From a virus: a DNA stretch of 37,411 bases. The notes below the pieces were generated by a model. That model was not told where the DNA came from and did not search any database. It saw nothing but the letters and a program-made list of their open reading frames with translations. Shown here piece by piece: positions 4,640 to 24,528 of the stretch. A program made the translations under genes and the position numbers. Each line of letters begins with the position of its first letter. The first letter of the stretch is position 1. The stretch covers positions 1 to 37,411 of IMG/VR virus record IMGVR_UViG_3300048597_000664, one strand, 5' to 3'.

Positions 4640-5611
4640 ATGGCTTCGCAGCCGCAGGATAGAGCCACCGAAACGGTCGATATCGATGCCGTTCGCACCC
4701 GGCTCAATGCCTACAAAATGGAACGCGGGCTCAGCTGGCAAGACCTGGCAGCGCGTGTCGGCCTGTCGCAGGGCACGCTCAGCGCCTTTGGCGTCAGCAA
4801 ATACTCGGGCGATAACGCCCGCGTCGCCGCCCAGGTCGACCGCTGGTTCACCGCCGAGATCGAGCAGGAAGCCCTGCGCCGGGCGCAGCCTATCGAGGCG
4901 CCGCGCTTCATCCCGACGCGCGCGGCCAAGCAGATCACTGCCAACCTGCACTGGGCCAAGCGCGGCAACATGGTGGTGGTCGCCGCCGCCCCCGGCTTTG
5001 GGAAGACCAGCACGCTGCGCCAGTTCGAAGAGGACGTTCCGCAGAGCTGGCTGGCGACGATGGCGCCCAGCACGGCTGGCGTCGCCACCATGCTGGCGGA
5101 GATCCTTGACGCAATGGGCGAGCGCGATGCCCGCGGCTCGCCCCAGATGTTGACGAAGCGGATCAAGGACCGGCTGCGCAGCACGAACGGCCTCATCATG
5201 ATCGACGAGGCCCAGCACCTGACCCAGGCGGCGCTGGAAGAGCTGCGCGGCCTGCACGATGTCACCAAGATCGGAATCGCGCTGGTCGGCAACGCCGGCC
5301 TGCTGTCACGGCTGGAAGGTGGCAACCGCCATGTTGCCTTTGCCCAGCTCTACAGCCGCGTCTCCATGCGCGTCGTCAGGAACCTCGCTTATGTCGAGGA
5401 CGGCGTGGCGCTTGGCCGCGCATGGGGCATCGATGACGAGCGCATGCTTGCCTGGCTGGGCGAGCTGACCGTCAAGCCCGGCGGCCTCCGCAGCGTCTCG
5501 ATGGTGATCGAGCTCGCATCGGTCCTGTGCGCTGCCGAGGACACCCCGCTTTCTTTCACCCACCTCCGCGACGCCTGGGCACAGCTCAGCACGCGTCCCG
5601 TCGCCGCCTGA
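4640..5611 (+). CDS. B: MuB-like AAA+ ATPase, transposition target activator
   Basis: 323 residues, close to MuB (312). MuB binds DNA as ATP filaments, delivers target DNA to MuA and stimulates strand transfer. The N-terminal part (about 14-60) is a helix-turn-helix (GLSWQDLAARVGLSQGTLSAF), as in MuB. The ATPase domain has Walker A AAPGFGKTS (116-124, K122) and Walker B GLIMIDEAQHL (D189, E190), then a sensor-like IGIALVGN strand. GAAGGA about ten bases before the ATG is a suitable ribosome binding site. This is the one early gene with a real gap (89 bp) before it, holding the hairpin. Confidence 0.95.
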   Translation: MASQPQDRATETVDIDAVRTRLNAYKMERGLSWQDLAARVGLSQGTLSAFGVSKYSGDNARVAAQVDRWFTAEIEQEALRRAQPIEAPRFIPTRAAKQITANLHWAKRGNMVVVAAAPGFGKTSTLRQFEEDVPQSWLATMAPSTAGVATMLAEILDAMGERDARGSPQMLTKRIKDRLRSTNGLIMIDEAQHLTQAALEELRGLHDVTKIGIALVGNAGLLSRLEGGNRHVAFAQLYSRVSMRVVRNLAYVEDGVALGRAWGIDDERMLAWLGELTVKPGGLRSVSMVIELASVLCAAEDTPLSFTHLRDAWAQLSTRPVAA

Positions 5612-8190: not shown

Positions 8191-8453
8191 GCAGAACGGA
8201 CGACACTCTCGACACCGTCGAAATGCGGGCGGCCGTTTCGCTGGCGGAGCATGATCTGCTGGTTCATCTGGAGCATAACCGCTCGCATCTGCTCGGCTAC
8301 GGCAAGCGACACCTGATGAAGACCGGTGTCGCCCATGCTCAGTACGTGGTTGCCGGCGAGTGCGAGCCGCTGCAGTTACAACGCCGGCTGATGCTGCTCG
8401 GAGCCGCGGCAAGGTTGCTGCTGGCCGTCGAGCTGATGGACGCCGGCCAGTGA
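8187..8453 (+). CDS. Hypothetical protein, second of a tandem paralogous pair
   Basis: 88 residues, coupled by ATGA to its paralogue. It keeps the AEHDLLVHLEHNRSHLLGYG core, HLMKTG and the LLGAAARLLLAVELM C-terminus, but the middle has diverged. The stop overlaps the GTG start of GemA (GTGA). Adjacent diverged copies suggest a heteromeric pair or a change of specificity after duplication. Confidence 0.65.
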   Translation: MSRTDDTLDTVEMRAAVSLAEHDLLVHLEHNRSHLLGYGKRHLMKTGVAHAQYVVAGECEPLQLQRRLMLLGAAARLLLAVELMDAGQ

Positions 8454-9283
8454 GCCGGGTCTACACCCACGGCGGCAAGCGCGGCGGCATGCCCGCCAGC
8501 ATGCGCACGGCGCTCGGCGGTGCCTATCGGCCGCCCAGCGACTTCGCAAACGTGGTGCCGATCCGGCCGCAGGCCGCACCGCCGAAGGAGAAGGCGAAGT
8601 TCCCGCCGGATCCGCAGCGCCGCGTGATGATCGCCAAGATCAAGATCGCCCAGAAGGACCTGGACTTCGACGACGGCGACTATCGCGCGCTGCTCGACCG
8701 GGTGACCGGCAAGGTCAGCTGCACGACGATGTCGCTGGCCGAGCTGGGCAAGGTGCTCGACGAGTTCAAGCGGCTCGGCTGGGCGCCGGTGACCAGCCAG
8801 AAGTCCAAAAGCGTACCGGGTCGGCCGCCCCTGGCTGACCATCCCGGCGCCCGCAAGGCGCGGGCGCTGTGGATCTCGCTCTCGCTGCTCGGTGCGATTC
8901 GGCAGCCGACCGAGGCGGCGCTTCAGGCCTTTGCTCGTCGCCAAATGGGCTGCCAGCAACTGCAATGGGCGGACCAGTCGCAGGTCTACAAGCTGATCGA
9001 GGCATTGAAGGCCTTTGCCCAGCGGCTCGGCTGGGACCAGTCGGTCGCCGGCCTGGCCGACCCGATCTGGACGCTGAAGTATCGCCTGGTCGCCGCCATC
9101 GTGAAGCGCATGGTCGCGGCCGGCGCGCTGCCGGCGGGGGCGACGATCGCCACCGTCATCGCGGAAAGGCTTGGCCACGACGAAGCGGTGCAGCAGGTCT
9201 CCGAGCGCGAACTCGAAACGCTCGCCAGCCAGCTGGGCCGCGATCTCGCCGCGCACGTCGCCGCCGACTATTACGAGGACTGA
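8450..9283 (+). CDS. gemA: Mu gp16/GemA-like regulator (DUF1018)
   Basis: 277 residues from the GTG at 8450 (GTGA overlap); longer upstream frames overlap the preceding gene. About residues 55-120 match the gp16/DUF1018 family: RRVMIAKIKIAQKDLDFDDG, then YRALLDRVTGKVSCTTMSLAEL and LDEFKRLGW. The rest (LWISLSLLGAI to the end) is a helical region common in the longer homologues. In Mu, GemA belongs to the middle of the genome and alters host gene expression and DNA supercoiling; the molecular action is unclear. It lies directly before the Mor-like activator, as in many Mu-like phages. Confidence 0.85.
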   Translation: MSRVYTHGGKRGGMPASMRTALGGAYRPPSDFANVVPIRPQAAPPKEKAKFPPDPQRRVMIAKIKIAQKDLDFDDGDYRALLDRVTGKVSCTTMSLAELGKVLDEFKRLGWAPVTSQKSKSVPGRPPLADHPGARKARALWISLSLLGAIRQPTEAALQAFARRQMGCQQLQWADQSQVYKLIEALKAFAQRLGWDQSVAGLADPIWTLKYRLVAAIVKRMVAAGALPAGATIATVIAERLGHDEAVQQVSERELETLASQLGRDLAAHVAADYYED

Positions 9284-9307: not shown

Positions 9308-9661
9308 ATGAACGACGCTCCGCCGATCGCGGCGGAGCTGATCGAGGTCATTGGCGAGGCCGCTTACCTGCAGCTCGCCGGGGCGATGGCCGGCTCGTGC
9401 TTCTACGTGCCGCGCCACCCCGGCGCTGATCATGCCATCACCCAGGCGGTCGGCCCAGAGACCGCCGCGCTGATCGCCGAATACTTCCACGGCCGCCAGC
9501 TGGTCCTGCCGGTCGGCTTCTGGCGCCGCCGCGCCATCATCCAAATGGGGGATGCAATGAGCGGCGATGAAATCGCAAGGGCGTTGCGGCTTTCGCGTTC
9601 CTATGTCTATGAGGTGCTGGCCGAGGCCAAGCGCGAGCGCGAGCCGGACCTCTTCGGCTGA
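9308..9661 (+). CDS. mor: Mor/C-like transcription activator
   Basis: 117 residues, matching the Mor family: a dimerisation half (ELIEVIGEAAYLQLAGAMAG, CFYVPRHPGADHAITQAVGP) and a C-terminal helix-turn-helix (SGDEIARALRLSRSYVYEVLAEAK, about 84-107, interrupted here only for description). Mor and C of Mu bind dyads just upstream of -35 and activate middle and late promoters without a good -35 box. No second family member is seen, so this one protein may serve both stages. A dyad begins 8 bp after its stop and recurs upstream of the protease gene; these are the best candidate targets. The start has no strong ribosome site. Confidence 0.88.
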   Translation: MNDAPPIAAELIEVIGEAAYLQLAGAMAGSCFYVPRHPGADHAITQAVGPETAALIAEYFHGRQLVLPVGFWRRRAIIQMGDAMSGDEIARALRLSRSYVYEVLAEAKREREPDLFG

Positions 9662-9665
9662 GCCG

Positions 9666-9693
9666 TCCCGTCCGCTGCCGGACGTGAGCCGCC
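9666..9693 (+). promoter_or_regulatory. Candidate late (Plys-like) activator site, copy 1
   Basis: Dyad CGTCCG-CTGC-CGGACG at 9669-9684 in the only gap between the Mor-like gene and the endolysin. The 28-base block 9666-9693 matches 21460-21487 at 24 positions, and the outer pair changes from C-G to T-A in the second copy, so symmetry is kept. A possible -10 (TATCGC, 9708-9713) lies downstream with no clear -35 box, as expected for an activator-dependent promoter. Inference from repeat, symmetry and position. Confidence 0.55.
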
Positions 9694-9720
9694 GGCGACT
9701 TCCACCCTATCGCTTTGGGC

Positions 9721-10326
9721 ATGCGCGCAGCAGCCCAGCCCTTCAAAACCGTGCCCGTTTCGGGACGCTTCGAGACGTGCCTGGCGCATCTGCTCAAGCT
9801 CGAAGGCGGCTTCGTCAGCCACGGGAGTGACCGTGGCGGCGCCACCAACCATGGCATCTCGCTGCGCTTCGCCGCGGCCGAGGCGCGGCTCGATCCGGTC
9901 GTCCGCCGACTGCTCGACGTCGATATGGATGGTGACGTCGACTATCTCGACATCCGCGGGCTCAGCCGCGAGGCGGCGGCCGAAGTCTATCGCCGCTGCT
10001 TCTGGGATCGCTACCGCTGCGGCCGGCTGAAACCGCGCATGGACGGCGCGCTGTTCGACCAGGCGGTCAACGGTGGCGGCGTCGCGGCGGTGAAGCTGTT
10101 GCAGCAGGCGGTCAACCTGCAGCGCCAGTTTCCCGACCTGGTGGTCGACGGTCGCATGGGGCCGAAGACGGTGGCGGCCGCCAACAGGTCCGACCCCAAC
10201 CAGGTCGTCGAGTTCATGCGGCAGCTGGCCGCCGGCCGGTACCGCGCCATCGTCAACGCCGACCCCAGCCAGCGCGTCTTCCTGCGCGGCTGGCTGCGCC
10301 GCGCGGCCCAGTTGGGGCACGTTTGA
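9721..10326 (+). CDS. GH108 endolysin (N-acetylmuramidase type) with EF-hand-like loop
   Basis: 201 residues from ATG 9721 (a TTG two codons earlier also exists). The N-terminal part has the GH108 motif LEGGFVSH, with presumed catalytic E28, then DRGGATNHGIS. The C-terminal part (NLQRQFPDLVVDGRMGPKTV and after) fits the peptidoglycan-binding domain usual in this family. It cleaves cell-wall glycan at lysis. There is no signal peptide, so it needs the holin. Between the domains, DVDMDGDVDYLD follows the EF-hand/dockerin pattern DxDxDGxxxxxD, suggesting calcium binding. First gene after the candidate late promoter; coupled by TGATG to the holin-like gene. Confidence 0.9.
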   Translation: MRAAAQPFKTVPVSGRFETCLAHLLKLEGGFVSHGSDRGGATNHGISLRFAAAEARLDPVVRRLLDVDMDGDVDYLDIRGLSREAAAEVYRRCFWDRYRCGRLKPRMDGALFDQAVNGGGVAAVKLLQQAVNLQRQFPDLVVDGRMGPKTVAAANRSDPNQVVEFMRQLAAGRYRAIVNADPSQRVFLRGWLRRAAQLGHV

Positions 10327-20535: not shown

Positions 20536-21321
20536 TCAAGGCTTGGGCGCCCAGGCCACGATGGCAGCGAAGAAGAGCACGAGAAAGACGCCGGCCGCGC
20601 CCAGCAGCCAGTTCATGTTGGTCTGCACGGTCGGGTCAAAGAGATCGTCCTGGCGCACATCGGCCGGCCGTGGGGCGGGATCGTCCGAAGCCGACACGCG
20701 GGGCGACAGCTTCAGGGCAACCCGAGGCGCGGACCCATCTGGAGCCCCCTGCTTCAGCAGCTCGGTCCGCCGCGCTTCGAGTTGCGGATAGGATGTAACA
20801 AACATGCAGCGGCAGCTGAGCGCATCGCAGCCGTCCAGTGGAAGCGAGGGCGCCGTGCCGGCGGGAAAGACCGTGCCATGAAGCGCGAGCGCCACAGCGC
20901 ATGTGCGGCTGTCCTGAACAGCGCTGAGACGCTGGGGCTGCGTGCCACTGGATCCCTCATTGTAATCTGCCGGACGCGCCGCTCGCATCGGTGCGGCGAA
21001 GATCGCGGAGAGGCTGGCGTTGATGTCCTCCAGCCCGCGCTCGGTCAGGGTGAACGCCAGCATCCGGCAAACCTTCACTCGCGGGTTGATGCCGAGATGC
21101 CGCTTCTCAGCGGCCGTGAGCAGCTCGTCGAAGTTCTTCCAGGCGGTGATCGTTGGGCCGGGGCCCATATTGCTGGAGGCGCCCTCGATGATGCCCGGGA
21201 TCATCCATTCGGCACGCTCGGGGTGCAGGATGCCGGTGCGCGCCGCCAAGGCAGCCAACGAGGCGCGGACTTGTTCATCGTCAAGCGACGGAGGCTGGAA
21301 CCTCGGATCGAAGTCGGTCAT
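20536..21321 (-). CDS. Moron: tail-anchored membrane protein of unknown function
   Basis: 261 residues from ATG 21321, preceded by a strong GTGGGGGA ribosome site; the TTG 27 bases upstream is less likely. A soluble part (ERAEWMIPGIIEGASSNMGP, TAWKNFDELLTAAEKRHLG), the cysteine cluster DGCDALSCRCMF, a flexible Pro/Ser region, and one C-terminal transmembrane helix (WLLGAAGVFLVLFFAAIVAW, about 236-255). It faces the MuF gene and is read against the late transcript, so it has its own promoter upstream of 21321. No family recognised. Because it abuts the toxin-like end of MuF, an immunity or exclusion role is worth considering, but there is no direct evidence. Confidence 0.75.
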   Translation of the reverse strand: MTDFDPRFQPPSLDDEQVRASLAALAARTGILHPERAEWMIPGIIEGASSNMGPGPTITAWKNFDELLTAAEKRHLGINPRVKVCRMLAFTLTERGLEDINASLSAIFAAPMRAARPADYNEGSSGTQPQRLSAVQDSRTCAVALALHGTVFPAGTAPSLPLDGCDALSCRCMFVTSYPQLEARRTELLKQGAPDGSAPRVALKLSPRVSASDDPAPRPADVRQDDLFDPTVQTNMNWLLGAAGVFLVLFFAAIVAWAPKP

Positions 21322-21429: not shown

Positions 21430-21460
21430 ACCTGAGGGGGCTCTCAGGTCCTTCTTGTTT
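21430..21460 (+). terminator. Rho-independent terminator upstream of the protease operon
   Basis: A perfect 7-bp stem ACCTGAG/CTCAGGT with a six-base loop (GGGGCT), followed by a T-rich run (CCTTCTTGTTT). It would stop rightward transcripts arriving from the packaging genes (or running antisense through the moron) three bases before the second copy of the promoter-like dyad, giving a terminator-promoter pair. Confidence 0.65.
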
Positions 21461-21487
21461 CCTGTCCGCTACCGGACATGAGCGGCC
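21460..21487 (+). promoter_or_regulatory. Candidate late (PI-like) activator site, copy 2
   Basis: Dyad TGTCCG-CTAC-CGGACA at 21463-21478, directly after the terminator and before the protease gene. It shares 24 of 28 bases with copy 1 upstream of the endolysin. The differing outer pair is compensatory. Mu has its late promoter PI at this place. The dyad overlaps the first ATG of the protease frame, so the real start of translation may lie further downstream. Confidence 0.55.
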
Positions 21488-22611
21488 ATCGCTGCCCGGT
21501 GCATCAAGCGCTGGTGATCAAGCGCCTCCTCTCGCATTTTCGTGCCGCTGCTTCGGGCAGCGCCCTCATCGCGGCTTCGGTTGCGACCCACGGCGTCGAG
21601 CAGGGCGAGCTGGTCGCCGCCGCCAGTGCCGAGGGGACGGCGCTGCAGCGGATCCGCGTGCTGCCGATCGGCACCTTCACCCTGCGTGATGGCCGTGGCC
21701 CGTTCACGGTTGCCGACCGGCAGCACGCACAGGACATCGTCGCCGCCAGCCTGGCCTATGCCGGCAATCGCGACATCCCCTTCGATTACGATCACCAGCT
21801 GCTGCACGCGGTCGGCCCCGGCAAAGGCGGCAAGGCCGAGGCCGCTGGCTGGGTCAAGGGCCTGACGGCCGAAGACGACGGGATCTATGCCGACGTCGAG
21901 TGGACGCCGGCGGCATCCGAAAAGCTCGCCGCCCGCGCCTACCGCTACATCTCCCCCACCTTTGCCTTCGACAAGGCCAGCGGGCGCGTCAGCGCCATCC
22001 GCTACGGCAGCCTCGTCAATGACAACGCCATCGACGAGCTGCTCGCCGTCGCTTCCACCAGCCAGGAGACCATCGTGGACTATTCCAAGATCGCGCTCGC
22101 GCTCGGCCTCGATGCCGCCGCGTCGCTGGACGACATCCTCGCGGCCATTGCCCAGACTGCAGGGCCGAAACAGACCATGACGGCCGCGGCCGCCGCGCTC
22201 GGCCTGGCGGAAACCGCCAGCGGTGATGACATCGTTGCCGCCGCCAGCGCCGCCGCCGCCGCTGCCAATGCGCAGCCCGACCCGGCCAAGTTCGTGCCGA
22301 TCGAGACGCTGCAGGACGCCAACGCGCGCCTGGCGAAGCTGGAAGGCGACCGCCATGACGCGTTGATCGCCGCCGCCACCGAGGCCGGCAAGCTGACGCC
22401 GGCCATGGAGCCATGGGCGCGCGGCCTGCTCGCCAAGGACGAGGCCGCCTTCCGCCAGTTCGTGGGCGCTGCGCCGGTGGTTGTCGCCGCCGGATCGCTG
22501 AAGCTCGACGAGTCGCTGGCCGGTGCCGCCACGCTGACCGCCGACGAGCTGGTGGTTGCCCGCAACATGAGCCTGTCCCCCGAAACCTTTGCCAAAGCCA
22601 AGGAGGCTTGA
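21478..22611 (+). CDS. I: Head maturation protease and scaffold (Mu gpI-like)
   Basis: Up to 377 residues. Mu I protein is a prohead protease whose C-terminal part, also made as protein Z, is the scaffold. The protease part has RIRVLPIGTFTLRDGRGPF, IPFDYDHQLLHAV (the DYxH region of the family), AAGWVKGLTAEDDGIYADVEW and YRYISPTFAF. The second half is helical and Ala-rich (scaffold), ending TLTADELVVARNMSLSPETF. ATG 21478 has no ribosome site and lies in the promoter-like dyad; GTG at codon 13 (21514) is an alternative. An AAGGAGG near its end serves the next gene. Confidence 0.9.
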   Translation: MSGHRCPVHQALVIKRLLSHFRAAASGSALIAASVATHGVEQGELVAAASAEGTALQRIRVLPIGTFTLRDGRGPFTVADRQHAQDIVAASLAYAGNRDIPFDYDHQLLHAVGPGKGGKAEAAGWVKGLTAEDDGIYADVEWTPAASEKLAARAYRYISPTFAFDKASGRVSAIRYGSLVNDNAIDELLAVASTSQETIVDYSKIALALGLDAAASLDDILAAIAQTAGPKQTMTAAAAALGLAETASGDDIVAAASAAAAAANAQPDPAKFVPIETLQDANARLAKLEGDRHDALIAAATEAGKLTPAMEPWARGLLAKDEAAFRQFVGAAPVVVAAGSLKLDESLAGAATLTADELVVARNMSLSPETFAKAKEA

Positions 22612-24488: not shown

Positions 24489-24528
24489 GGGCGGGGCGAA
24501 GTCCGGACTTCGTCCCGCCCTTCTTTTT
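24489..24528 (+). terminator. Strong rho-independent terminator within the head genes
   Basis: Two 16-base arms (24489-24504 and 24505-24520) pair throughout, with one G-T pair: GGGCGGGGCGAAGTCC against GGACTTCGTCCCGCCC, closing in a CCGG loop, followed by TTCTTTTT. It lies 52 bases after the HI1506-like stop and 13 before the next ATG. Partial termination would keep gpT-level expression above that of downstream genes. Confidence 0.85.

Follow-up and report, generated by a model that had tools for sequence, protein, structure and literature searches.

What is the function of a short inverted repeat that stands just behind the activator gene of a Mu-like phage and recurs ahead of its head protease gene? 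The window, by which we mean the whole 37.4-kb virus record analysed here (37,411 nt), is such a phage. It encodes a Mu-type transposase, MuB, GemA, a Mor-like activator, a GH108 endolysin, a terminase, a portal protein and gpF, and its head genes include a Mu I-like protease and a gpT-type capsid protein. As with Mor and C in Mu, the Mor-like gene sits between gemA and the lysis genes. The elements around the two copies of the repeat are as follows.

8360-9283: GemA (PF06252)
9308..9661, + strand: Mor/C-family late activator gene, 117 aa; helix-turn-helix (HTH) at about residues 85-108, C-terminus EREPDLFG
9669..9684, + strand: predicted Plys activator dyad, CGTCCG-CTGC-CGGACG, centre 9676.5
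9721..10326, + strand: endolysin, GH108 / PG_binding_3 (Pfam PF05838, PF09374); start placed by geometry
21430..21449, + strand: terminator-like hairpin with a T-rich stretch behind it, immediately 5′ of the second dyad
21463..21478, + strand: predicted PI activator dyad, TGTCCG-CTAC-CGGACA, centre 21470.5
21514..22611, + strand: Mu I-like head protease (Pfam PF10123, E 1e-67); start inferred from relatives

A preliminary description had reported the first dyad directly after the Mor-like stop codon, together with a second copy before the protease gene. Its sequence and position were borne out, the stop codon being at 9659-9661 and the dyad running from 9669. The second copy begins 11,794 nt downstream of the first, and we could likewise confirm that 24 of 28 positions are identical between 9666-9693 and 21460-21487 and that the outer base pair is C-G in one copy and T-A in the other. 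When all same-strand 28-mers of the whole window were compared with each other, two pairs matched at 24/28 or better; the dyad pair was the only one with both members outside predicted genes, and the other pair (25456/28062) we take to be coding sequence. One 24/28 pair somewhere in the window is near the chance expectation. That both copies should fall within the ~100-nt stretches ahead of the endolysin and protease genes is, by our estimate, not a chance event (~1e-5). Dyads with 6-bp arms and a 4-nt spacer occur 20 times in the window, so that such a dyad alone is unremarkable, and the dyad pattern with two mismatches allowed was not enriched there (10 observed, 15.7 expected). The case for these two dyads rests on their repetition, their position and the relatives described below. 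We found no third site in the window: the best other candidates matched at 11/14 and lay either within coding sequence or next to a terminator, and no third dyad was recognisable at the tail genes downstream of 24489-24520. The latter coordinates (+ strand) mark a strong intrinsic-terminator-like hairpin with a 14-bp stem, TTCTTTTT, which separates the head genes from the next gene. No σ70 consensus promoter was present between 8000 and 25000 of the window, as expected if the promoters in this region are activator-dependent.

The Mor-like protein scored 26.7 bits against Pfam PF08765 (cut-off 24.9) and matched PHROG 836, 'late transcriptional activator', with E 1e-19. Structural matches were weak. 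An AF2 model, built with a 10-sequence alignment (pLDDT 87.9, vs 46.5 from the single sequence), returned Mu C (9l0x_I) first at E 0.07 and Mor (1rr7) third at E 0.35 in a Foldseek search of the PDB, and its VIA Z of ~4 was level with generic HTHs. A PDB sequence search with the protein found no relative, a genome scan using it alone gave no match, and tblastn returned no matching phage record. The first match of the Mor scan (L001) was spurious, with a stop inside the aligned frame. PDB entries 9l0x and 9l0y, released in 2025-12, are cryo-EM structures of the Mu C and Mor transcription initiation complexes.

Relatives were collected in three sets. A capsid-protein scan yielded 80 IMG/VR loci, with Mor-like genes in 34/50 of these records. 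Set 1 comprised 34 IMG/VR phages with both sites, set 2 comprised 45 prophages found on contigs of bacterial genomes, almost all of them alphaproteobacterial, and set 3 comprised 26 phages fetched via the portal gene instead of the capsid protein; sets 1 and 2 share some prophages, and set 3 may overlap them too. We determined the best 18-nt match between the 160 nt downstream of the Mor gene and the 300 nt upstream of the protease gene, taken from the same phage or from different phages. The own-phage mean was 15.1/18 in set 1 (n = 34), 15.6 compared with 13.2 between phages in set 2 (n = 45), and 14.2 compared with 12.8 in set 3 (n = 26). In each set, 0/20000 permutations were as high, so the scan of relatives' endolysin and protease genes that the preliminary description had called for found matching dyads in all three. 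Clear palindromes at both places were present in 49 of the 79 phages of sets 1 and 2 (44 distinct), for example CCCGCAAACTGTTGCGGG twice, or the pairs CCCCGAAATCTTTCGGGG / CCCCGAAAGCTTTCGGGG and CCCTGACATTTGTCAGGG / CCCTGACATATGTCAGGG. These palindromes vary among phages yet agree inside each phage; about fifty relatives share the arrangement, each with its private palindrome. The remaining 30/79 phages had no matched palindrome by our criterion, several of them having matching, imperfect sites. In most genomes searched, the two sites were the only strong copies of the dyad. Some carried a third copy in the late region (contig position 5015 in G019, 7738 in G007 and 17831 in G011); the one in G019 has the same geometry as the other sites, with an ATG at +46. 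Such third copies may correspond to Mu PP or Pmom.

Dyad similarity among these phages followed HTH identity (rho 0.43; Mantel 0/2000), also after N-domain identity had been removed (0.25, 0/2000). N-domain identity predicted dyad similarity about equally (partial 0.26), which means that relatedness is incompletely separated from specificity. Relatives keeping the same HTH and lacking the dyad had been named beforehand as evidence against Mor-like recognition. We observed the opposite: mean dyad similarity was 0.82 at HTH identities > 65% and 0.41 at < 30%. Specifically, the HTH group DVTVRxYL pairs with CCCGCAA-N4-TTGCGGG, TESGVDKLF with GCCCGCC-GGCGGGC, SESAVNRxF with TGGCGACC-GGTCGCCA, and ITERWVYK with TCACCCTGAA-TTCAGGGTGA; in the window, SRSYVYEVL (HTH SGDEIARALRLSRSYVYEVL) pairs with GTCCG-N4-CGGAC. 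The consensus YGTCCG-N4-CGGACR had been proposed to define a late regulon by a site unlike that of Mu. It stands as a putative late-regulon consensus unrelated to Mu's site, and it proved to be private to the window phage rather than family-wide, being absent from the fetched loci (for the later portal and endolysin loci, this covers the Mor-downstream region alone). The sole IMG/VR match to the exact 20-nt pattern, L002, lay inside an unrelated ORF and was dismissed as chance. Among the relatives as far as tested, none carried the recognition helix of the window protein. With neither helix nor consensus shared, the assignment in the window leans on the shared architecture.

Kinship alone could yield part of the correlation between HTH and dyad, and the dyads might be operators of another phage regulator, e.g. 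a factor that responds to DNA modification or a late repressor. We consider this unlikely, given that the correlation survives the N-domain control, and that a Mor/C protein agrees with the adjacency to the Mor gene, with the positions ahead of lys and I and with a -44 geometry like that of Mu (PMC4390567, PMC4461284).

At Mu Pm, a Mor dimer occupies a 16-bp dyad centred at -43.5, and the promoter has a -10 hexamer and no -35 element (PMC4390567, PMC4287176). Profiles anchored on the dyad centre revealed a -10-like NANNNT ~32 nt past the centre that is common to protease and lysis sites. A34 was present in 34/43 protease and 36/43 lysis sites and T38 in 30/43 and 29/43 respectively; the complete NANNNT occurred in 33/43 and 32/43 (shuffled means 4.5 and 4.1). 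The protease ATG lies 45-46 nt past the dyad centre in 35/43 phages, and on the lysis side an ATG at the equivalent spacing was found in just 11/43. Together with the layout of Mu Pm, the protease spacing would put the transcript start a few nucleotides from the ATG, suggesting a near-leaderless mRNA. Overall, the sequence geometry in the 43 phages fits a dyad centred near -43.5 with a -10 and no -35. The corresponding elements of the window, placed by the family profile, are weak and lie 1 nt nearer the centre than the family mode.

9708..9713, + strand: predicted -10-like element TATCGC, positions 32-37 from the centre
21502..21507, + strand: predicted -10-like element CATCAA, positions 32-37 from the centre

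By the same geometry, we predict that the endolysin starts at ATG 9721, 44.5 nt past the centre, on a near-leaderless transcript. The protease probably starts at GTG 21514 (43.5 nt past the centre) rather than at ATG 21478, the A of which is the final base of the second dyad. On the lysis side, several relatives among loci L084-L113 (e.g. G012, G021, G041, G031 and G044) carry, in place of the ATG, an additional GC-rich hairpin distinct from the dyad and close to where the lysis transcript is predicted to begin, in some cases followed by TTTT; it is possibly an attenuator or a stabilising leader.

The dyads are themselves intergenic GC-rich inverted repeats, and this, like the extra GC-rich hairpin near the predicted lysis-transcript start of some relatives, would suit a role as RNA, i.e. 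as terminators or leader hairpins ahead of the two operons. We rejected this reading as very improbable: both window copies fold like shuffled sequences (z -0.54 each), have no T run and gave no Rfam match, in contrast to the terminator-like hairpin 24489-24520 (z -3.5). Moreover, the arms are 0-2 nt apart in many relatives, a spacing that suits a protein dimer and makes a poor hairpin loop, and both the -10 profile and a start codon at a fixed distance of 45 nt place the dyad 5′ of the transcript. The hairpin at 21430..21449 also takes part in the computed RNA fold around the second site. As for a chance match in a GC-rich genome, single 6-bp dyads are common and each window should hold about one 24/28 pair; we nevertheless regard it as a negligible prospect, refuted at the family level by the dozens of phages that have dyads, unrelated in sequence, at these two positions.

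Collectively, the observed repetition and position of the dyads, their geometry, the matching within phages and the correlation of HTH with dyad argue that they are, very probably, where the Mor/C-type activator encoded by the phage binds at two late promoters, Plys and PI. The earlier proposal that they are putative targets of the Mor-like activator is thus supported by the matching in relatives, the geometry and the HTH correlation. The dyad recurs ahead of the equivalents of both lys and I, as expected of Mor/C-activated promoters, and its description as an operator of the Mu Mor/C type, private to the phage and serving a late regulon from two copies, is well supported at the sequence level. 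Plys would drive the lysis operon, which follows directly on the activator gene, and PI the operon of protease and head genes. A dimer of the Mor-like protein would bind the 16-bp palindrome centred ~44 bp 5′ of the start point, stand in for a -35 element and recruit or isomerise host RNA polymerase at the poor -10 ~32 bp 3′ of the centre, with transcription starting a few nucleotides from the start codon. Each phage lineage may have come to its private site because site and recognition helix changed together.

Promoters of this kind are already known from Mu, where C acts at the lys, I, P and mom promoters (PMC4461284). With Mu late promoters and Pm, those described here share the activator family (PF08765), an upstream dyad and, as predicted from the geometry, a poor -10 with no -35 (PMC4461284, PMC4390567, PMC4287176); with Mu they also share sites before lys and I and a dyad centre ~44 bp 5′ of the start, as predicted here. 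Mu uses C at Plys, PI, PP and Pmom and Mor at Pm, whereas we recognised a single activator gene. Also unlike Mu, the site sequence is unrelated and phage-private, with two sites in most genomes and three in some, and we predict a near-leaderless mRNA for the protease. The generality and variability of the sites, the fixed near-leaderless protease geometry and a clamp-like activator tail appear to be new; in open-licence PMC text we found no report of site covariation in Mu-like phages.

In a diverse Mor/C alignment, the columns conserved at ≥ 90% were two glycines and a C-terminal-proximal Q and L, the latter two belonging to tails such as DPRQPDLF, DQLSLF and QGSLF. After clustering at 60% identity, QxxL[FL] was present within the last 25 residues of 74/83 Mor/C representatives, among them Mor and C of Mu, vs 7/151 other annotated phage proteins. 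Mu C ends RRHQPDLFSPETPK (HQPDLF) and Mu Mor ends YRQYQPSLL (YQPSLL); DMS3 Mor has QQSTLFH and Thiobacimonas phage P1 DDRQLSLF, and the tail was seen in the Mor/C proteins of loci L084-L127, L269-L318 and L170. Most of the family thus carries a C-terminal motif of the QLxLF type, which the window copy lacks: in its tail (9635-9658), EPDLFG, E replaces Q, and QxxL[FL] is absent.

QLxLF is a β-sliding-clamp motif found at transposase C-termini, and clamp binding has been demonstrated for the IS1634 transposase (PMC4549789). In T4, the late factors gp33 and gp55 are tethered to the sliding clamp gp45 by C-terminal clamp motifs (PMC7892883), and in Mu, late gene expression follows the onset of replication (PMC4461284). 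From the tails we infer that Mor/C proteins may contact the β-sliding clamp. We tentatively propose, as an idea we hold to be plausible yet somewhat short of probable, that Mor/C proteins, including those of Mu, carry a clamp-binding peptide, that the clamp-tethered activator fires replicated templates, and that private sites block cross-activation between prophages. Clamps left on replicating phage DNA would tether the activator, so that late promoters fire on replicated templates, and fast-changing private sites would keep co-resident Mu-like prophages from cross-activation. Mu C activates in vitro (PMC4461284), and any clamp tether would therefore be helpful, not essential; in the window phage, with E for Q, it may be weak or lost. 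If the tether reading is true, late transcription would be coupled to replication in a T4-like manner by an unrelated DNA-binding activator. The likeness to T4 late transcription, in which a late activator has a C-terminal sliding-clamp motif (PMC7892883), is by analogy only: unlike gp33/gp55, Mor and C are site-specific DNA-binding dimers, neither sigma factor nor coactivator, and their clamp contact is putative. The same short C-terminal consensus QLxLF occurs in mobile-element proteins, the transposases, whereas Mor and C are transcription activators. Open-licence PMC text yielded no report of a clamp motif in Mor/C and no proposal of a mechanism linking Mu-type late expression to replication.

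The analysis provides, from sequence alone, a late-promoter map (dyad, -10, start codon and fixed spacing) for a large Mu-like group. Dozens of natural activator/site pairs with differing specificities may yield a recognition code for the Mor/C HTH, for the modelling of which 9l0x and 9l0y are usable, as well as orthogonal activator/promoter parts; corrected start codons for protease genes may also follow. The near-universal clamp-like tail, a by-product, offers a direct and inexpensive way to ask why late genes of the Mu type are expressed after replication, and may outweigh the dyad finding in importance. An ORF on the - strand between gpF and the protease (20539-21321), which has a hydrophobic C-terminus and no PHROG family match, is probably a cargo (moron) gene; it contains an internal RQDDLF, itself clamp-motif-like.
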